A stretch of 64,000 nucleotides of DNA from Wuchereria bancrofti. Its lineage: Eukaryota; Nematoda; Chromadorea; Rhabditida; Onchocercidae. The stretch lies in contig SSBO01000001.1 in NCBI GenBank assembly GCA_005281725.1, forward strand, positions 6,990,399 through 7,054,398, given 5' to 3'. Positions 16,201 to 53,857 of the stretch are shown here, one piece after another. The notes below the pieces were generated by a model. That model was not told where the DNA came from, did no database searches, and saw nothing but the letters and a program-made list of their open reading frames with translations. Position numbers and translations under genes: made by a program. Numbering within the stretch: the stretch's first letter is position 1; each line of letters opens with the position of its first letter.

Positions 16201-16632
16201 GGCAACCAACAAGGCTGATTAAAAATTTCCCGTGTGATATACTCCTTTTCCTTTCCTCTATTTTAAACAATGACATCCCTTTAACAGCACAACGTTAATC
16301 TAATGGCAATTAGAATTTTAATAACGGTTGTATACATCAATAAGATATATATATACTTCCCATAAAAGTGCTGAGGAGAGAGAGAAAAAAACGAGAGAGA
16401 GAAAATAATTTATGACAATAGTTAAGAATGACAACTGCAAAAAGCATCGATGTTAAAAGATATCAAATGATCTAATTGCTGTAAGGCTTGTTATCATTGC
16501 TGCTACTGCTGCGGAATTAATTGAATTTTTACGTTATGCGCTCTCATTCCTTCATACAACCATCAATTATTTCTTCAATTATCCGCTAAAAATGTGCGGT
16601 ATGTGCACATACATACATTCACACACACACGC

Positions 16633-16670
<38 letters not shown>

Positions 16671-19600
16671 ACACACACACACACAATGTACACACCTCAA
16701 CTTCATACAAATATACTTTCCAATGCTTATATGTACTTTAATGAAACTAATTCAAAACTGCGTGTGTGTAAAAGGTGTTACATGCATGTGGAAGATACTT
16801 AAACAATAGCTGCTGCATGTACATGAAAGATGCTGAAGCAATACTTGTTGCATGTTGAATGTTTGTCTAGGCTGTAATGAGAAATTAATTAAATGATTTA
16901 TTTGATTGAGTAGTGACTGGTCGAGATTCATTATTTGCTCTCTAAATGTTACACAATAAATTCGATGAATTGAATGTAAGAAAAAAGTCTAAAGGATAAA
17001 GTTATGGCTATTGTAAAAAACTGAATTGATTTAAAAACAAAACTATGAATGTGTGTGGAAGATGCATTAAACTGAATAGGTTTTTTAGACTCTCATTTTT
17101 TAACTAAGAATCCTATTAAATTAAGAGTTGAAAAGTGACAAGTTTTGGTTATCATTTCCTTTTTAATGCATAGTCTTTGCAGAGCCGCAAGTTTATGCAA
17201 AATATTGCGTCTTCAATTTCAGATCAATTTCAAAATCTTGAAGCGAGAATTTGGATTGAATTTTTTAGTAATAGAAAAGCGAGTATTTTAGAAACCATGA
17301 ATTGGTTTCTAAATTAAGTGTTTTAATGCTGTTGTAGAACATATAGATGATATGATTACAGCTAATCACCTACTTTTCTTCTTATTGCTACTGCTAAATT
17401 TTTTAATGCCATTTCATTAGGCTTTGTTGAAAGTGCAAACATTGCTACATAACACAATAAAGAAGGTATATTATGCAAATATGCTCTTTACTGGAAGAGT
17501 TTTCTACAGTTCACATTCTGCAATGAGATCTCCAACTTGTTCATAATATAGTAGTGGAAAAGTGATAATATCAGTTGCACATCAGATCCATTCTGTCAGT
17601 CTGTGTGTGTATCACCACCCACTTTTGGCATCTGAAGTAGAATCCTCCAAACTGTATCATCATCCAATTATCATCTATGAATTTCATATGAAAACTTCCA
17701 TTGTTATCAGAAGCTATATCATAAGAGTGGTAAGAAATAAATGCAGAAAATGAACATTATGAATTATAAATGATTACAATATCTCGTTTGATAACAGTAG
17801 AAACATTCGTTTGATTCAGTTTTCGTTCTTCCTTCTATAAGGCTTAAAGCTTTTAAACTTTTTTTTAAATAATTTTAAATAACTTTGTTTTAGTAATTTA
17901 CTAGTTACTTTAATAATTTATTAAAAAATTTAAAATGTTTTATTCTCATACTTTCCAAACATTTATTATAAAGAATCTCAATGTTGTTGCTTCTCTTCAA
18001 TTTCCATTATCACCATTCTCTTTCGACTTGCAGTTTAATTGGTAAATAGTGTTCTTAAATGCAAACAGAAAAGGTTTTTTGAATGAAACTTCAGAATTTA
18101 ATTTTTTCAACGGAATACTACACATGTTAAATTGCAATAAGGTTTTATGATTTTCAGTTGGTCCATGTGCTATTGATTATACGATGATGGATCATCAATG
18201 TGATCCATATGAGGAACCCTTAGCCGGTGAATTGGTTGAGCGACATCGTAGCATTCATTCATGTTCAGCTACTCCTCCGACGCCCAAACGACCACCATTA
18301 ACGGTTATTTCTTCAAATATACCCGAAATATCTGAATACTTTTTACAAAGAAAAAAAGTTGATATGTTAGGAATAACTGGCTTCTAAAACTATCCTGAAA
18401 AGCAAAAAAAAATGATGACGTATTGTTTGTTTATTGAATGAATTCTAATATATGTATCATTCCAATTTGTCACGCAGCTCAAGTAATAATTTGATGTGAA
18501 CTCTCGGATCAGTGCAGGTGATGAAGCGTGGTAGCAGCATAGTAACAAGCGTTGATAGCTGTTCATCACCCATGTGTACATTTGGACGCGATTATGTGTA
18601 TTCATTACATCAGAACGTGAAAGCATCATTGTTATACGGTAAAAATAATGTCACCGCGACTGTGTCACCTGATGGACCCCCAATGAAAGGTTATCTATCG
18701 CTGCATCAGAATTCACCGGGAAATGTAACTGTGAAATGGTCACCCAATCAATTGATGCATTCAAGGTTCTAATCATTTGCCACTCCGTTTGCTTGTCAAT
18801 TATTTCTTATCAGTTGCTACATTCATCTAACTTACTGACTAACATGTTTATCATATATGAAATCAATTAAGCATCTGGGAGAGATGAAATCAGAGTGAGA
18901 TATTTTCAACTCTATGAATTCAGTTCGCAGCCATCCTCAGCTTCTTGTGATAATCTTCCTTGTGATGGTGATTGGCTTTGGAGGCATATTATCAACATCA
19001 ATATCAGTGATATAATCTACATACATATACATCAGTATAGTTAGTACCTTATCAGTAATTTTTTTTTGTTTAAATTCGAAAGAACTTTTTTCTATCTAAC
19101 TTTAACGACCAAATCCGAAATTAAATTATTCAGTTATAAACAAAAATCGGATAAAGGAGAATTCTGCAACAGTCTTGACTACTACTATCTGCTTATGTAA
19201 CTTATCATCGATAAGATCAAGCCTATTTGATGCAGAAGGAAGATAATTTTGGAATCAATTAATGATTTCAGACGAGAATTCACCAACGACATTAATTTTC
19301 GTTGGCGGTGACGGCGTGCAACATTCACCGATGCAATTTCCAGCAGGCCATCATCTGCTTGCTTTCCTTTCCTGTCTCGAAAGTGGTTTAGCACCTTACA
19401 ATCGACTCGATCCACCCTTATGGTTTTCCAGAGAGAAAGGTTATCAAATACTACAATTAAATCAAATCTTTCAAATCAGTGATGCTATTGCATCAAATGA
19501 CCACTTTTATAATAATGTAGCAAGTTGCACTGCAAAAAAATTGAGAGTTGAAATTATCATTATAAATTCAACATCTATACCAGAAATTCATACGTATTTT

Positions 19601-41455: not shown

Positions 41456-42751
41456 TTTCCACAAATAACCATTTGTAGCAGTAATAAGTAATTAGTAACG
41501 ACATAAAAAACCATTAACTAAAACAAAAGTGAGCGGGAGTAACAAATAAAAACAAAATAAGCAAAACTATTAAAAATCGTAAAGTTGAAAAATTAAGATA
41601 TTAAGTTACATAAAATTCATGACAAATATACGCTAGTCCATATTTAATTACTGCAATGCTTAAAATTAATAACGACGAAAACAAATAATCAAACAGCAAA
41701 TCATCAAACACAAAAGATGGACATGTAAAACACAAATAAATAAGTAAAAAAATAGCAAAGCTAAGTATAAATAATAGAATCAAAACAATTCTTTTTTCCT
41801 TTGAGTTTTGTTTGTTTTTTAACTTGGGGCGTCTGACTTTTGTAGCTTAAATCATTTGTTATTGCAGACAGCAACAAATACAGTGATATTTTCATAGAGT
41901 ATCAACGAATGAGATGAAGAAAATGAATAAATTGATGGAAAAATGAACTGAATTAAATGAGTGTGGGAGGGTAGTTGAACTATAACTTACTAGTGCAAAA
42001 AACTTATCTAAAGGCAACAATTTGATAATTCTTTCTAAGTTCAGTGCTTCCGCATATACTATATGCAACATCAGAGTATTGATTAGTTATACCACAATAA
42101 CTGAGAGAAGTCGGGATCAAGCGATCATTTAGTGCTGGATATAGACTTTTTTCTACAATTTTTTAATGCCGAATTAAAAAGTATAGAGCATTATAACTCA
42201 ACATATTTAATAAGACTTCAATGTTTCCGCCTGCTTAATAAAATTCATTTTATTTATTTGCTAAATTTAAATTACAACTGTTGATTTAGATTTTGATAGC
42301 TTAGTTTCACACCGCTGTTTTTCCATAGTGTTGCAATACAAACACCTTTTTTTGTTAGTTTAATGAATCAGAAAATATTATCACTAATTTGTTTCTATTT
42401 ATTTGCTTTTACATATCATGCTTATAACCACAAAAAGTAATGTATGTAATATATAATATACATACACCATGAATTTGGTGTGAAAGAAAGAATTTTAAGT
42501 AAATCATAAAAGATGTGAAACCACTCGAAAAGTTTGAAAACCATACACAAAATAGTTCTAAAATTTTGCAAAATATTGATAAATAATTTTAACAAAAATG
42601 GCACATCCATGCTGCTCGTAGCTTTTTATGAATTGTTTCACATCTAAGTAAACGTCATTGCAACTAAATATTCGAGCTATATTCATAAAAGGAATATGAT
42701 AGTACAGATAATGACAAAGCCAAGTGTAGAAGAAGGAATCGTGAATACATG

Positions 42752-43475
42752 TTAAATTGATCGACAAATTTCGGACAGTGTGCAACACATTCCATCAATG
42801 CATATTACCGGACGCCCTCCGGATAGCGGAACGCATGACTGTGAATTTGCACATTGCAGGCCAACAATACGTCCACTATTTGGACATTTTTGTGGTACCT
42901 AAAGAAAAGCATTCATTTCATCTACATCTGCTAAAAATATTTCAGTTCACAATTCGAAAGAAAAGCTATTTACCAAACAGGACGGAATCGGAGACAATAG
43001 GGACGGGAAGGAATCGGCGGTCAAATTTCAAAGCATTTACATGAAGTGAAATGATAAAAAAAAAGTTCATAGAGTACTTCAAGTGTAACCGAAACAATTT
43101 CTTAGAACAGTCTGAGAATTTCTTATACATTTGCTAGTTGAATGAGAAACCAACCGTACAACAAATTCCTTGTAGACAAGCGACGGGTTCTTTAGTGAAC
43201 TGAAGGCATTGTTGAGATTGGATACAACCAACCACGAGAGCTCTTCCGCCATTACTACAAATTAGTGGAGCTTGATAGGGTAGTTTAATGGGATTTCCTG
43301 ATTTGGTGCAACATGCACCTCTGATACAATCAACCGGATCAGTTGTGTAAGGGCTACACTGTTGGGCACTCGAGCAACCTAAAGCCACAGCATGTCGATC
43401 AGCAGGGCACTTGAAATCAGCCAAGTTATGGTGTGCCAAAACAGTAGTTGTTAAAAGATTGAATAAAAATTGCAT
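42752..43475 (-). CDS. Secreted six-cysteine CC-motif repeat protein, left copy
   Basis: Two exons, 43475-43155 and 42898-42752, phase 0, 155 aa. An N-terminal hydrophobic stretch MQFLFNLLTTTVLAHH is a probable signal peptide. Then come three modules with six cysteines each, spaced C-x10-C-x5-C-x9/10-C-x4-CC: they start CPADRHAVALGC, CSNGGRALVVGC and CPNSGRIVGLQC and end GACCT, GICCT and GMCCT. The intron falls in phase 0 straight after the second module. The CC-ending module resembles the CC domain (PF04942) or lustrin-type cysteine modules of nematode secreted proteins; function is unknown. Compared with the right copy, Ser replaces Leu directly before the third Cys of module 3 (ANSQSC). 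The arm boundary lies only 34 nt past the stop, so its 3' UTR differs from that of the right copy. Confidence 0.8.
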
Positions 43476-43493
43476 TCTTCCACACTATTACTT

Positions 43494-43500
43494 CTAAAAT
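43494..43500 (-). promoter_or_regulatory. Likely trans-splice acceptor of left CC-motif gene
   Basis: On the minus strand ATTTTAG ends 18 nt before the ATG at 43475. No upstream exon in frame was found, so this is a probable spliced-leader site; the same site exists in the right copy ending at 49623. Confidence 0.5.
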
Positions 43501-44693
43501 GCTAATACTTTTTTTTAAAAGATTGAAGCAGTGGTTAATTCATTATAAATCATATTCATTGTTGCAAAATATATTCAACTGATGTTCCGAGATGTCTTTG
43601 TAGGACAACAAAGCAAGAAATTTTAGAAGTCTTAAATTTCTGCCTTTGTTGTTTCATAATATTGAAAGACAACATTGAATTTTTGTCGAATAATTCGAAA
43701 TGCTCCTCGAACAATGTGCAATGGTTAATGCAAAGAAGGAAGTCTTGAATCAAAAAAAAAAAAAAAAAACGTCTGAAATCTTCAGTAACACTTGAAATTG
43801 AAACTTCTATCTCAAAATTCATTTACAAAATATTTACGCTTTATTGTGGCATCGTTTTAATGAATGAGAATGGCTCACAAATAGACTGCGACAACGTGAG
43901 GACAGTCAGAAAAACCAACAAAAGCTCAAGCAGAAAACAACACATTCGATTTGATTGCACAGGTGAAAGAATGCATTTTGGATTTTTAGTTCATAATATT
44001 TGTTAGGGCGATCAGTGTACCAATCAAATCCATAACTTTTCGAATTGATGTCTTTGCTTTCGAATTTAACAATTTGATCCTCTGATAAGATGCTTATGTC
44101 AGATCAAAAAAGAGTGCTGCTCTATCATTTCTTAAGTTTAATTGTTGGCTTTTGCATGGTCAAATCAAAAGCGATGTTTGTCCGTTTTTATAGCTTCAGT
44201 TTATTTATCGACTAAGCTTCTAAAATTCCCGTTGAATTGTTCGATTATTTTACGCTGGTAATCTATTGCAATTTCAAATTCATTCATTGCTGACTTCTCA
44301 GATGAAAGTTAGCTTTTAAAACAATCATATGACAAGTTGACTGATTTGTATACAATAGATTTTCTTATCTCCCTCTTTTCTCGATTTTTCAGCTTTTAAG
44401 TAATCCATTTTTCATCACTTCGTCCTAATTTAGTAATTGAGGAGCAATCAAATTATCAGGTTCTTTATATAAGGTCAAATTATTCCTCGACGAAGAAGAA
44501 ATTTCCCAAACATTACTTTATACTAAATGAATGGACGTTAATGATCCGTCGTTGCGTTATATCAATTTCTATTAAACTAAGTTTACGTTAACACTTCAAC
44601 TTCCGGTCCATTTCTTTTGCTGAAAATATCACAAAAAAGAATGTTCATTAATGAGAAAATTTAGGTGGAATGAGCAGAAAAATAATTAGGAAG

Positions 44694-45383
44694 TCAATAA
44701 GCACAACATATACGCTGTATACATAATACCGGGACTCCTTGAGCTAAGCATTCGCATGATTTTGAATTGTCACATCCCAGGCCAATTACTTCGCCGCCAT
44801 ATGGACACTGTTGAGGTACCTAAAAGTTATGTGTAGAAATTTATTATTCCATTTTTCTTTTTCGACAATAAAATAAAAAAAAAAAAAAAAAAACTTAATT
44901 AAACTTTAATTCCTTGAGTATTTGATATTAATCGATATAACTTGTTTTACTTCTTTCCTTATCTCAATCTTCTACCCTTATATCTCTATAGCTTTCCTCT
45001 ATTCAAACTTTTCCCTTTTTTCATGCTCTCTTTTTATTTTAATTACTAAATTTATTCATTGATTCAACGATTTCATTCAGTAATTTATTTGATATTATTA
45101 CAGTGCAGCACAATCCCGTAAGGCATGCAACATTTTCCGCTGACGGCAAGCAATCATACGATGTTCCGCATGTCTTTCCTGTGAAGGTACCATTATTTGA
45201 ACATGGTACTGTGCAGCATTCCGAGTCAAGGCACACAACATGATCCGTTGGCTTTATTTTGTACGGTTCACATTGCGCATCCATAGTGCATGCATGTGCA
45301 ACCCATTCACCACCATTCATGCATTGTATACTAGTAGCAAGAACAGGTAATAACCAAAATATAGTTAATACAATGATTGTCAT
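44694..45383 (-). CDS. Secreted six-cysteine CC-motif protein, intact paralog
   Basis: Two exons, 45383-45102 and 44819-44694, phase 0, 135 aa, stop TGA. The start ATG follows TTTTGCAG directly, and MTIIVLTIFWLLPVLATS is a clear signal peptide; the reading frame stays open further upstream but lacks that context. Three six-cysteine modules follow: CMNGGEWVAHAC to SECCT, CSNNGTFTGKTC to GLCCT, and CPYGGEVIGLGC to RICCAY, the third with one extra Cys. The intron sits after the second module at exactly the position seen in the neighbouring paralog (CCT, then V-P-Q), which argues for tandem duplication of one ancestral gene. It lies 1.2 kb upstream of the paralog on the same strand. The inverted-duplication breakpoint at 45116/45117 falls inside its first exon. 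Confidence 0.78.
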
Positions 45384-45391
45384 CTGCAAAA
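45384..45391 (-). promoter_or_regulatory. Likely trans-splice acceptor at the ATG
   Basis: TTTTGCAG on the minus strand abuts the start codon of the intact CC-motif gene, leaving no untranslated leader. A spliced-leader site or the end of a 5' intron would both fit. Confidence 0.5.
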
Positions 45392-48000
45392 TTTTGTGAA
45401 CTGCATACTTGCCAATAACAAATAATGCAATATAATGAGATAAAAATAATAATAGCAAATAACAAGTGGTTTGCAACTGGCAAACATTTACGACCGTAAT
45501 TATTACCACTTTATTAACATTATTAAAATTCACTAAAAATTTCATTTTCAAAATTCATTTGATGATATTTAAATGACGAAAATTTTTCTGCCATTTATAT
45601 CCTATCTAACTTTTCAAAATTTTCTCCTATTGTTTAAACACTTTACTTGAAAATATACAAATCTCATAATTTTCTAAAATCTAGCTGAAATTGCCAACTG
45701 CAGTGAAATTTATTTTATACAAATTGCAAATCAATGTTTTTTGAGTAAAGCAAATCTTTCTGAGACATTTTGTTCAATAGCAAAAATATAAAAATGAAGA
45801 AATACCATTTTCCTGCAGAATGAAAGAACTTAAAGCAGAAAGTTTAATAAGAATTTAATTCATTTGAAATTCTGACAAATTCCATTTTTGAAAGCAAAAA
45901 AAAGAAGTTTCGGTGCTATTAGTGGAAATACAAAGATGATAACTGAAACAAAAAAACTGGAAAAATGAACAATCTAATGTAGTAATAGTTTGTTAAATGA
46001 TAAGTGAAATTAGAAAACAAATAGTTTTAGAAGGACTATTTGTTTTAGTGATAAGGAAGATTATTATTGTAACGACATTGATTAAACGGGAGAGAAAGGA
46101 ACGAAGAGGGAAAGAAAGGATTTTAATAAAACATTAATGAAAATTATATTGAAATAGGTTGCATCAATATTAGTAATTAAATTTAAGATGAAAGAAAAAA
46201 ACTGAAAAAAGTAAATAAAACGATACGCTAAATCTTCAAAAAAGAAAAAAAACTATCAATGCTTACTACTCACTTATGCATTTTTGATAATTTTTGATAA
46301 ATGGAAGAAAAAAAAGATGCTGGTATAAATTTTACTTCAATTATAATTCAATAATGATAATAATAATAAATAAATAAATAATAATATAATGAAGTCACTT
46401 TAGTTTTTTAGTATTTTTAAAAAATATTTAAAAAATTCTTCATTTTTCTAGTTTAGCTGATTATTGTATTTTTATGTTTAACCTTTCTAATTTCGTATAT
46501 TTTAATGAAACAAAAATTTTTTCTTCATGCAATCAGATTAATTTAAATAAATTTTGATGATTGAATAATAACTTTTTGTTTGCAAATGCAACAATAATAA
46601 CAAATATTTTTGTTTGTGCTTACATGTAAATGAGTTTTGTAAACAAAATTTACGCATTTGATTTCATCACACTATCATTTGTGCAGCTGTCATAGAAACA
46701 TTTTCAGGAATATTTATAGATTGTAACGGGTTTTCCGGAATATTTGGAAATGTTTGATAGGAACAAATTGGATTGATTATGTGAAATGAAAGAAAAGAAT
46801 AAAACAGCATATACGTATATAAGTGTGCGTATATGTACGTGTGTTTCTGCGTGTGCAGAAGGTATGCATAAATGTGGAAGGCTAACTTAGAAATGTATAT
46901 TCACAGTAAAAATGAGAAAGGATAAATGCTTAATTATGATGACAATGCAATTTCAAATGGAATAGTTGTAGATTTAAAATGTTTAAATCAATACTTAGTT
47001 ATTGGTACTCGATACTTGATTAGAATTCACATTTACAAACTCATAATTCTTAGTAGGACATTTTAAAATTTTGAGCTATGAAATCATTGTTTGTAATAAT
47101 TTCCCAAATTTTACTAATTATTGCCTTATTGCTGAAAATCTAATTTTTCAATCAAAAATCTAATAAATAAATCATTAGAAATCAAAATTTTTTTTAAAAG
47201 TATTTGGAATAATAAATTTAGAAGAAAATAACATATACTAAAAATTGAAATCTGAATAAATTACTATCTTAAAACGATATTGTGTCGTATCATACCATAT
47301 TGTTTTGCGAAAATTAATATCTAAAATTTATTATTATTGGCTGATGATGAAAGATGAACAGAACTAGTTCGAATGATGTAAGTTGATAATAGTATTTCTT
47401 AAACAAAGCGTACAATAATTGTTTCATTCTATAAAAAAGCATTTATCTAATCATTCGTGGTTAGAGGAGTGAAATGAATGGAACTAGGATAGCAAATATT
47501 TAGAAGCTTGCCCAACCTAAAAGAAGTAGAATTTAAGTTATAAATTAAAATTGATAGCAAAATGAATAGAAATGATAAAAGATTCTTCCAAAAAAATCTT
47601 CTAAAAAATAACAAAGCTCAAGAACCATCATTTTATCCTAATAGAATTATTTGATATTTGATCTTATTTGATAATAAAAACTTTTCTATTATCAAATAGT
47701 TGCATTTGATACTTTTAAGACAAGATTAATAATTCATCTTCACCTACCAGTTAATTAAGCTGTTGGTTAAGGTGCCAGTTCCATATGTCAGCTAATTAAC
47801 CTGGTGGTAGCACCAACATATTTGAAATGAACAAATGGTCGAAGAAAAATAGAGTATTTTGCGGGAAATTTATGCATCTAATTGCTACATATTTATATAA
47901 ATTAAAATATAAATTAAAAAAGTAAGTTTGTGCAAAATTTTTAAGGAATCAGACATATTTACAAAAAAAACTGGAACCAAAATTTTGTCATACAAGAAAA
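45384..48000. other. Unique spacer between the inverted arms
   Basis: AT-rich non-coding DNA holding the upstream region of the left intact gene. It contains a perfect 12-bp stem (47665-47676 with 47687-47698, TATTTGATAATA and TATTATCAAATA) and a second imperfect stem around 47744-47810 (GTTAATTAAGCTG against CAGCTAATTAAC). No gene or transposase was recognised. Confidence 0.6.
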
Positions 48001-48423
48001 GGATTGTGCTGCACTGTAATAATATCAAATAAATTACTGAATGAAATCGTTGAATCAATGAATAAATTTAGTAATTAAAATAAAAAGAGAGCATGAAAAA
48101 AGGGAAAAGTTTGAATAGAGGAAAGCTATAGAGATATAAGGGTAGAAGATTGAGATAAGGAAAGAAGTAAAACAAGTTATATCGATTAATATCAAATACT
48201 CAAGGAATTAAAGTTTAATTAAGTTTTTTTTTTTTTTTTTTTATTTTATTGTCGAAAAAGAAAAATGGAATAATAAATTTCTACACATAACTTTTAGGTA
48301 CCTCAACAGTGTCCATATGGCGGCGAAGTAATTGGCCTGGGATGTGACAATTCAAAATCATGCGAATGCTTAGCTCAAGGAGTCCCGGTATTATGTATAC
48401 AGCGTATATGTTGTGCTTATTGA
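48001..48423 (+). pseudogene. Beheaded copy of CC-motif gene
   Basis: Only the last 15 nt of the first exon (48001-48015, coding GLCCT), the intron and the complete second exon (48298-48423) of the 44694-45383 gene are present. Signal peptide, start codon and two of three cysteine modules are missing because the duplication breakpoint cut through exon 1. Sequence left of 48001 is unrelated and offers no obvious replacement start. Splice sites of the remaining intron are intact, so a chimeric transcript is possible but unsupported. Confidence 0.85.
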
Positions 48424-49641
48424 CTTCCTAATTATTTTTCTGCTCATTCCACCTAAATTTTCTCATTAATGAACATTCTTTTTTGTGATATTTTCAGCAA
48501 AAGAAATGGACCGGAAGTTGAAGTGTTAACGTAAACTTAGTTTAATAGAAATTGATATAACGCAACGACGGATCATTAACGTCCATTCATTTAGTATAAA
48601 GTAATGTTTGGGAAATTTCTTCTTCGTCGAGGAATAATTTGACCTTATATAAAGAACCTGATAATTTGATTGCTCCTCAATTACTAAATTAGGACGAAGT
48701 GATGAAAAATGGATTACTTAAAAGCTGAAAAATCGAGAAAAGAGGGAGATAAGAAAATCTATTGTATACAAATCAGTCAACTTGTCATATGATTGTTTTA
48801 AAAGCTAACTTTCATCTGAGAAGTCAGCAATGAATGAATTTGAAATTGCAATAGATTACCAGCGTAAAATAATCGAACAATTCAACGGGAATTTTAGAAG
48901 CTTAGTCGATAAATAAACTGAAGCTATAAAAACGGACAAACATCGCTTTTGATTTGACCATGCAAAAGCCAACAATTAAACTTAAGAAATGATAGAGCAG
49001 CACTCTTTTTTGATCTGACATAAGCATCTTATCAGAGGATCAAATTGTTAAATTCGAAAGCAAAGACATCAATTCGAAAAGTTATGGATTTGATTGGTAC
49101 ACTGATCGCCCTAACAAATATTATGAACTAAAAATCCAAAATGCATTCTTTCACCTGTGCAATCAAATCGAATGTGTTGTTTTCTGCTTGAGCTTTTGTT
49201 GGTTTTTCTGACTGTCCTCACGTTGTCGCAGTCTATTTGTGAGCCATTCTCATTCATTAAAACGATGCCACAATAAAGCGTAAATATTTTGTAAATGAAT
49301 TTTGAGATAGAAGTTTCAATTTCAAGTGTTACTGAAGATTTCAGACGTTTTTTTTTTTTTTTTTTGATTCAAGACTTCCTTCTTTGCATTAACCATTGCA
49401 CATTGTTCGAGGAGCATTTCGAATTATTCGACAAAAATTCAATGTTGTCTTTCAATATTATGAAACAACAAAGGCAGAAATTTAAGACTTCTAAAATTTC
49501 TTGCTTTGTTGTCCTACAAAGACATCTCGGAACATCAGTTGAATATATTTTGCAACAATGAATATGATTTATAATGAATTAACCACTGCTTCAATCTTTT
49601 AAAAAAAAGTATTAGCATTTTAGAAGTAATAGTGTGGAAGA
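48424..49641. other. Duplicated intergenic stretch
   Basis: Mirror of 43476-44693. It includes an 18-nt T tract at 49348-49365 of the same length as the left arm's A tract. An 88-codon open frame (49295-49561 and its mirror) has no recognised motif and probably is not a gene. Confidence 0.6.
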
Positions 49642-50365
49642 ATGCAATTTTTATTCAATCTTTTAACAACTACTGTTTTGGCACACCATAACTTGGCTGA
49701 TTTCAAGTGCCCTGCTGATCGACATGCTGTGGCTTTAGGTTGCTCGAGTGCCCAACAGTGTAGCCCTTACACAACTGATCCGGTTGATTGTATCAGAGGT
49801 GCATGTTGCACCAAATCAGGAAATCCCATTAAACTACCCTATCAAGCTCCACTAATTTGTAGTAATGGCGGAAGAGCTCTCGTGGTTGGTTGTATCCAAT
49901 CTCAACAATGCCTTCAGTTCACTAAAGAACCCGTCGCTTGTCTACAAGGAATTTGTTGTACGGTTGGTTTCTCATTCAACTAGCAAATGTATAAGAAATT
50001 CTCAGACTGTTCTAAGAAATTGTTTCGGTTACACTTGAAGTACTCTATGAACTTTTTTTTTATCATTTCACTTCATGTAAATGCTTTGAAATTTGACCGC
50101 CGATTCCTTCCCGTCCCTATTGTCTCCGATTCCGTCCTGTTTGGTAAATAGCTTTTCTTTCGAATTGTGAACTGAAATATTTTTAGCAGATGTAGATGAA
50201 ATGAATGCTTTTCTTTAGGTACCACAAAAATGTCCAAATAGTGGACGTATTGTTGGCCTGCAATGTGCAAATTCACAGTTATGCGTTCCGCTATCCGGAG
50301 GGCGTCCGGTAATATGCATTGATGGAATGTGTTGCACACCGTCCGAAATTTGTCGATCAATTTAA
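49642..50365 (+). CDS. Secreted six-cysteine CC-motif repeat protein, right copy
   Basis: Exons 49642-49962 and 50219-50365, 155 aa; the same product as the left copy except Leu instead of Ser before the third Cys of module 3 (codon TTA against TCA). Signal peptide and all eighteen module cysteines are kept, so it should be functional if transcribed. The duplication brought 1.64 kb of upstream sequence, including the acceptor ending at 49623, but not the start of the neighbouring paralog. If the two genes depend on a common upstream promoter, this copy lacks it. The stop codon is 34 nt from the duplication edge, so its polyadenylation signal must come from new flanking DNA (an AATAAA is present near 50965). 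Confidence 0.8.
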
Positions 50366-53300
50366 CATGTATTCACGATTCCTTCTTCTACACTTGGCTC
50401 TAGCATTATTTCAAATCTTATCAAATTTATTGATTATTTCTATTTCATCGTTTATAACTTACCAACAATCTTTTCCAACTGTAAATGTATCCTACTGCAA
50501 AATTGATTGACATATATAAATCTAACATCCTTGTATCTCTTCATAATTTCAAACGTTTATTGTAAATCTATTTACGAAACCCATTGATTCTTACAATTTT
50601 AATTTTATTATTAATCATTATTTGTTGATATCATGCATTCAGAGTCCAATTAACATCACTAATAGTAACATATATGATACCTTATTTCATCTTATCAATC
50701 AAAATTTGGTCTTTTTATGTATTCAAAGTGTTATTATTCGATTTACATTTGTAGTTGTTATTATCAAACACAGTTTTCACTTTATTTTGATGACTTTTTC
50801 AATTTTAATGTTATTACTTATCATTTTTTCTTGATACTATTGTCTATGCACTTTTTTCTCTACAACTTTATTAACTTTCGATTAATTCCATCTTAGATCA
50901 AAACCATAAAATTACGATTTGAGATGAATTGAGATGTGTAAGCTTTATAACTGAAATGTCAACAATAAATTTGTATCCCTTTTGCATCATTGTTGGTTGA
51001 GTATGTCATATCGTTGAAACAAATTTCGGTCTTTTTCAGAAGTTCCGGAAATTTCAGGTTTTTTATATTGTTTTTCATAAATGTATAATGATAGATGAAT
51101 CTAGATTATTTAAAAATATTGGGTATTTATAAATTCTGCATAATTTGTCTATTATCATACTTATCAAAATGAATAAATAAAGATGAGACTTATAAAATAG
51201 CTTGGAATTTAAAATTCATACTTTCAAAGTTCATTTTGCTTAATATCCGATAAGCGCATCAAATGTAAAATGCTGTAATTATTGGGTATGGAACAGCTTT
51301 CTTGCTTCCTTTATCCTTTTTCACCTGCATTATTTATTTGTTTCATTACAGTCTGTTCAGACTTTTCAGTAAAAAAAATTTAATTTATTAAGTTCTAAAG
51401 TCTCAGAACTCTGAATATCCATTAATTAAATGATGTTGACACTGCTGATGCCAGCTACTTCCACTATTGTGTAGAGACAAATGAATGGAGACTTCACCGT
51501 CCTACTTTTAAATCGATACGTTCATTAAATTTCTTCAATATTTTGTCGTGCAGTTGAATCGCAGCTATAATTAATCATTAAAAAATTTAGTTTTTTAAAT
51601 TATTTATTTCAATTATTCATACACTAAATTTAGTGAATTAACATTATATGAAATTAAACATCTCATATTAGTAGATCCAAATATTATCATAACAATTACT
51701 GGAATTGTTCTCTTAATAAATGAAACTATATGATTATTTATCATTCATTTCCTGTTTTATCGGATTTCAATCTTTCGCAGTTTAACACTTCAGAAGTTTC
51801 ATATAGAACTTTACGATTTAATAGTTAGACGAATCAAAAATCTTAAATTTTAAACTTTTTAAACGGATTGCAAATTTATAAACTAATCTCACAAAAAAAG
51901 AAAGAGGAATTGAATCACTTATAAAAAGACAATTGCAGAATAGAATCCATAAGAAAATAAAATAAATTATTTTTATCCAAATAAAGAGTCACAATGAGTC
52001 TGAACATTACCCACAAATCTGAACTCAATTTACAACAGTTGTAAATACCACACTTTGTAATGAATCCTTGCATAACTCTTTAAATGGAACATAAGAAAAA
52101 AAAATCAAATATGCCATAGAAACCGATTTTAACTTCAATCATACTTCTTGATATTACTTGTTTTTAGAAACCGTTCTTCTCTTTTAACTTTTTTAACAAA
52201 TATTCGAGAAGTTTTGAAGGATTTTTAATATATTTTGTTGCAAAAAGATACAACAATAATTCGACAAATCAAAAATAATACCAAGTGATTTGTTCTTTTA
52301 AATGAAATAATGAAAGTTACAATTTAGTATAATTTTACACAAATTATTTTTATTAATCCTATTTGCATAATAATTACAGTTCATTAAAAAAGGTAGTTTA
52401 TTAAAAAATTGACATGATTTATGAAGTAATTAGCAAAGTTATTTGGCCGCTTTATTTTAACGTGCAGATATGATCTCATTGAACTAAATTTAAAGAACAA
52501 ACGTGACTGTAATAAAATGTGAATAAACGCGATTTCAGCATAGTAAATTCCACCAGTAAAAACAAGTAAGCATGACGTCGTAATTATAGGTGGATTTCAG
52601 GAATAAACAAGAATTATGTTGACGACTAAACTTGATTTTACTATCACAAAAATATTGCAGTAAAGGTAGTTTTAGTATATTAGTTGTTATATTATCACAG
52701 GCTTTTTCATTAAAAAATTGCTTATTTTCTTTTTTCCCTCTCTAATTTCATAGAAAAATTATTCATACAAACACTGCATAAAAGAAACAAATCTGGCTTT
52801 AAATTTCAATAACCATGGATTCTTAAAAAAAGAAACAATAACAGAAGGAAAAAAACCAATTTGAAATTAAAATTCTCTTAGAAACTTAAATTGGTCAAAA
52901 TTATATCTTTTACAATTTTCACTTTATTTATGTCAGAGAAGGCATAAAATTGGCAACGAAAAAAAAAACTCGAATTTCAATAATCGATCAGAAACTCTTA
53001 GGCAAATTTTCCATTGTTAATAATTTTTAATATAATTAAATTACCATTTCGCAACAATATAAATATTGATATATTACATTTCCGATATATTTTGTTAATT
53101 ATAACTCCAATTTATCGTATTTAATTATCTCAATTGATTTTATTTTTGCAACACTTTCAAATATAAGCGAAGTGTTCTTTTTTTTCTTTTTTGATCAAAT
53201 AATGTGTTAATAACAGTTATTTATAGCTTGGTTATTTCATTCTATTGGAAAACTAATAAGTACTAAGAAGTTTTCATTTACTAATAAGCTTTGTCTATTA

Positions 53301-53727: not shown

Positions 53728-53857
53728 CATATATACATGCATAACCATATATGCACACGTACGCATAAACACATACAAACATACACACACAAACACACGC
53801 ACATACAAACGCACACACACATACACACATACATGCATGTATATACACATACACAAC
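53728..53857. repeat. CA-rich imperfect microsatellite
   Basis: Irregular CATA, CACA and CAAA units over about 130 bp. Open frames of Thr/His/Cys/Val composition on both strands arise from it and are not genes. Confidence 0.85.

Follow-up and report, generated by a model that had tools for sequence, protein, structure and literature searches.

The inverted repeat and its genes

The window, that is, the whole stretch of 64,000 nucleotides of Wuchereria bancrofti DNA analysed here, contains no N and lies in a contig of 12.4 Mb. Within it, two arms of 2399 bp (42718-45116 and 48001-50399) are reverse complements of each other and enclose a spacer of 2884 bp. No indel separates the arms, and only two substitutions do: A at 42777 is matched by G at 50340 in the right arm, and G at 42837 by A at 50280. 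This bears out the description, made in a previous sequence-only reading, of a near-identical 2.4-kb inverted pair with a unique 2.9-kb spacer. The same reading had reported no net indel and one confirmed substitution; the first count holds, and the second is to be raised to two. The elements of the locus, named where needed after database protein models (P numbers), are as follows.

42569-42642, minus strand: left-flank sequence in which the C-terminal tails of three models find their best six-frame matches in the window: W. bancrofti P0001, B. pahangi P0011 and B. malayi P0010, the last weakly
42718-45116, minus strand: left arm, 2399 bp, 2 mismatches and 0 indels relative to the right arm
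42752-42898, minus strand: gene 2, left copy, exon 2, read from open frame and splice sites
43155-43475, minus strand: gene 2, left copy, exon 1, agreeing with W. bancrofti model P0001 in 108/108 residues
44694-44819, minus strand: gene 1 exon 2, within the left arm, read from open frame and splice sites
45102-45383, minus strand: gene 1 exon 1, crossing the inner left junction 45116/45117, read from open frame and splice sites, with relatives in Cercopithifilaria, Thelazia and others
45117-48000, no strand: spacer, 2884 bp, containing the gene 1 start; one full-length place in the genome
48001-50399, plus strand: right arm, 2399 bp; the arm has two full-length places in the genome
48001-48015, plus strand: remnant of gene 1 exon 1 (its last 15 bp), mirror of 45102-45116, severed by the right inner junction
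48298-48423, plus strand: duplicate of gene 1 exon 2, a fragment without the gene start; in tblastn, the protein of exon 2 aligns with 48298-48420 at 100%
49642-49962, plus strand: gene 2, right copy, exon 1, read from open frame and splice sites
50219-50365, plus strand: gene 2, right copy, exon 2, which departs from the left copy at two amino acids
50400-50507, plus strand: right-flank sequence, into which B. malayi P0009 and B. pahangi P0012 read on without a break; a tblastn match (50319-50507) spans the junction

Gene 2 is present in each arm as a complete two-exon gene of 155 residues, its frame intact in both copies. The product is a small, cysteine-rich protein with a hydrophobic start and repeated cysteine modules ending in CC, and is probably secreted. 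Gene 1, a relative of gene 2 encoding 135 residues, starts at 45383 in the spacer and runs leftward into the left arm; its exon 1 encodes a hydrophobic start and two cysteine modules. The right arm holds only the tail of this gene (the last 15 bases of exon 1, and exon 2). Neither protein matched any Pfam family at E up to 1 or, specifically, the CC domain PF04942, whose single genomic match sits on another contig; the source label of P0001 is "CC domain-containing protein". Further relatives of these exons were found neither elsewhere in the window (tblastn, E below 0.1) nor elsewhere in the genome at E ≤ 0.001, all 7 of the 7 matches lying within the locus. With gene 2 in two copies and no relatives elsewhere at that threshold, the proposal that an unstable palindrome drives amplification of a cluster of secreted-protein genes finds no support. 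Scanning the window with Rfam (at gathering scores) and with ARAGORN returned nothing. Two CA-rich simple repeats that match each other lie at 16606-16686 and 53764-53856.

In a search of the worm's own genome (86.5 Mb, 108 contigs), the arm was placed at full length twice, and a different contig gave one further match of 50 bp (3/3 candidates scored). The spacer was placed at full length once; it also gave six short matches, of which the longest spans 81 query bases. The search scores the best candidates only, and these repeat counts are lower bounds. The same applies to the search for several genomic copies, as of a transposable element, which yielded just the two full-length places of the arm. 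Chance as the origin of the arm match is excluded.

A larger and older duplication, with diverged homology beyond the arms, was considered and rejected: local alignment scores of the outer flanks over 200, 500, 1000 and 2000 bp were reached by 61%, 13%, 32% and 51% of random window pairs, respectively. The arms are thus bounded. On the inner side, the alignment score over 2000 bp exceeded that of all random pairs, but at this length the two pieces overlap inside the spacer. BLAST extends the pair by 10 bp at the cost of 3 extra mismatches (42708/50409). Of the first 10 bp past the outer edge, 7 match; judged against random pairs, this has a P of about 0.01, rising to 0.06 at 40 bp. Originally, then, the arm may have run slightly past its present outer edge.

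Both arm differences fall in the outer 120 bp, within exon 2 of gene 2, and each alters an amino acid; introns and intergenic arm sequence are identical between the arms. The placement of both differences within 120 bp of one end has a P of about 0.005, by a test picked after the data had been seen, and could also come from short reads correcting the arm edges only. The 99.9% identity may be somewhat too high, since minor differences between arms this similar can be smoothed out when a consensus is built.

Relatives of the two genes in other worms

Three of the gene 1 relatives, P0015 (Cercopithifilaria johnstoni), P0017 (Thelazia callipaeda) and P0019, read across the left inner junction when aligned by eye, in a comparison that left out Gongylonema P0020; the models from Loa (P0018), Dirofilaria (P0021) and Acanthocheilonema (P0016) differ or skip sequence near this point. 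The three spanning models suggest that the left inner join is probably ancestral and that the right one, 48000/48001, is new. Naming the original arm from the wholeness of gene 1 on the left was also considered; should the spacer be able to flip, this says nothing on arm age. The C. johnstoni matches to genes 1 and 2 share one contig of 75,948 bases, and the two genes therefore probably lay next to each other before the duplication took place. None of the database matches to gene 1 (44694-45383; n=7) bears a Wuchereria or Brugia name, though the frame is open here; the gene is either unannotated in those records or lost in Brugia.

The search with the gene 2 protein gave 14 proteins, among them B. 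malayi P0009, P0010 and an isoform model, P0014, and B. pahangi P0011 and P0012. The best database match, W. bancrofti P0001, equals the left copy up to residue 148 and then takes its last exon from the left flank: in a six-frame scan, the best match of its tail in the window is 17/17 residues at 42642-42592. By the same scan, the tail of B. pahangi P0011 finds its best match, 18/19 residues, at 42625-42569. The best match for the tail of B. malayi P0010 is weak (5/9 at 42642-42616, score 28 vs 22 for the next place) and begins at the same base as the last exon of P0001. The other model of each Brugia species, B. malayi P0009 and B. pahangi P0012, crosses the right junction instead, over 63 residues at 50319-50507 that are 76% and 75% identical, respectively; the residue from which they enter the right flank, at 50400, is the same in both. 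When the portion of P0009 ending in the right flank was itself used as a protein query, the same four Brugia models came back (4/14 candidates).

Both Brugia species thus have two copies of gene 2 with different flank tails, and these gene models indicate that the duplication predates the split between Brugia and Wuchereria. The comparison is one of predicted proteins, which can be wrong, and covers about 430 of the 2399 arm bases, all in gene 2 and its downstream end. In Brugia, a gene copy adjoins each flank with its 3′ end (by a weak match at the left flank in B. malayi), an arrangement to be expected if the copies are inverted on collinear chromosomes, and the two B. pahangi tags, QQG55_3335 and QQG55_3345, are close together. 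The arms are presumably inverted in Brugia too.

Homogenization of the arms and competing explanations

Copies group by species and not by position. Within species, P0009 matches P0010 without a difference over a run of 135 residues, and P0011 matches P0012 over one of 97; in the part common to the copies, differences number 0/90 residues in B. malayi and 0/87 in B. pahangi, vs 6 substitutions and a 3-residue gap between the two species. The copies being identical within each Brugia species, no site in the compared part can unite left against right copies. Between B. malayi and the window, 19 (left copy) or 21 (right copy) of 143 codons differ, corresponding to at least 0.044 changes per base; the 143 codons are four stretches of our own choosing from which the places of frame change are omitted, and 45 of them are read in a frame other than that of the gene in the window. 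Had the arms gone unconverted, this B. malayi rate would predict about 106 differences across their 2399 bp, against the 2 observed. At both sites where the arms differ, all four of the four Brugia models have the left state, indicating that both differences are derived on the right side. The Brugia models also show frame changes relative to the window that are partly species-specific and are common to both copies of each species.

On this evidence the inverted duplication is very probably old, its arms having been kept alike by arm-to-arm gene conversion, with conversion the simplest agent that would account for the pattern. In the ancestor of Wuchereria and Brugia, a single inverted copying event would have placed a 2.4-kb piece, comprising the whole of gene 2 and the tail of gene 1, 2.9 kb away. 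The first copy was probably made by replication-based template switching, a mode on which the junctions alone are uninformative. Later gene conversion between the arms, within a chromosome or between sister chromatids, would have held them near-identical inside each species while the species diverged. Base composition may point the way biased conversion would, but gives little: GC is 0.336 over the arm, with 0.331 reached by 4 of 87 other 2400-bp stretches, and 0.30 in its non-coding part vs 0.24-0.26 in the non-coding parts of the spacer and flanks.

The sequence-only reading had left the choice between a young event, gene conversion and an assembly artefact. Conversion, acting on an old duplication, is the part of that statement that stands; the junctions in the Brugia gene models speak against both youth and artefact. 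Two differences and no indel over 2399 bp are what a very recent duplication, confined to this species or strain, would produce. However, one copy in B. malayi and one in B. pahangi run through this same junction on the right and into sequence homologous to the right flank, and each of these species has a second copy with a different tail, which makes an explanation of the identity by youth highly improbable. We consider it just as improbable that two haplotypes, or a fold-back read, were joined in opposite orientation during assembly. The locus contains no N, its flanks are distinct, its arms differ at two sites, and the single-copy 2.9-kb spacer is unexpected from a simple fold-back; moreover, gene models from two other species reproduce the right outer junction, and in B. 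pahangi one copy is joined to the left flank. What lends the artefact some plausibility is an apparent case about 220 kb away on the same contig, where inverted blocks of 640 and 563 bp are 100% identical and accompanied by a single N.

This case came from a control scan for near-identical pairs (at least 150 bp, E 1e-20) over 264 kb, comprising 200 kb upstream plus the window and thus part of one of 108 contigs. Four pairs passed: the pair described here, one of 2.6 kb in direct orientation (99.8%), and two inverted blocks that are nested. The latter, 640 and 563 bp long, match L021:2819-4022 with L021:6178-6740 and L021:8132-8771; the N, at L021:3459, lies between the first two blocks, and the arrangement looks like a scaffolding join. 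The direct repeat of about 2.6 kb has its copies about 14 kb apart (L035:8261 to L036:891 and L037:2222-4850), and its longest open stretch is 95 aa. This assembly therefore has other near-identical pairs, some of them suspect; the pair in the window differs in having no N and in its support from other species.

Two further explanations accept the Brugia copies but dispense with conversion. Separate duplications in each lineage at a fragile site would leave the same identity within species; to fit the data, though, the outer junctions must have recurred at the same places in three lineages, and P0009 and P0012 enter the right flank from the very same residue, at 50400. We regard such recurrence as scarcely credible. 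Least probable of all is that an old duplication had both its copies held identical by purifying selection. The intact frame of gene 2 in both copies here would suit it, but identity between the arms extends to their introns and intergenic sequence, the two differences that do exist are exonic, and the Brugia copies are identical even though their models shift frame relative to the window. Conversion is preferred, since purifying selection would not keep introns and changed frames identical.

Comparison with known inverted repeats and implications

Maintained inverted repeats of paralogous gene pairs have been described in Caenorhabditis, at F44E5.4/F44E5.5 and at the HSP16 locus (Zhao et al. 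2007, PMC1803023), in an account that names gene conversion as one mechanism and argues for selection on structure too. The present locus resembles the pairs presented there: its near-perfect inverted arms carry opposed gene copies, it has counterparts in several nematode species, the duplication appears older than a species split (as read from gene models, with a B. malayi left tail of 5/9 residues), and the copies are closer within species (0 differences) than between them (6 substitutions and a gap). It differs from the examples in PMC1803023 in the length of its spacer (2884 bp vs 126 and 414 bp), in its filarial host, in that one arm cuts a neighbour gene, and in the frame changes present in both Brugia copies. 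The locus is thus a filarial-parasite extension of a pattern already published for Caenorhabditis. A search of the literature on gene conversion, concerted evolution and inverted duplication in filarial worms, judged by titles and opening abstracts, returned no description of it.

The palindromes of mammalian sex chromosomes are much larger than this pair. As reported for those on the X and Y, arms are more than 99% identical, conserved across species and homogenised by arm-to-arm conversion (PMC8981503; PMC3723533); near-identical arms and retention across species are found here as well, with arm-to-arm conversion as the proposed agent (compare PMC8981503). The B. malayi models sit on a contig of 14.7 Mb, and the X of this species is given as 24.9 Mb (PMC7181701), so the locus is probably autosomal, and in this respect unlike the mammalian palindromes, if the two sizes come from comparable assemblies.

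More speculatively, the arms may let the 2.9-kb spacer flip, possibly as a polymorphism in worm populations. Flipping would be harmless to gene 1, which is whole in either orientation because both arms carry its last exon and splice site beside the inner junction. As part of the same tentative proposal, conversion would also have put frame changes into both Brugia copies of gene 2, leading to decay of a probably secreted protein that is kept in Wuchereria. The locus suggests, in this regard, that conversion can spread damaging changes to both members of a gene pair. It is easy to mistake near-identical inverted copies for recent events or assembly errors; with a pair that appears old and, as judged from two sister species, homogenised in each, dating such copies by their identity would mislead.
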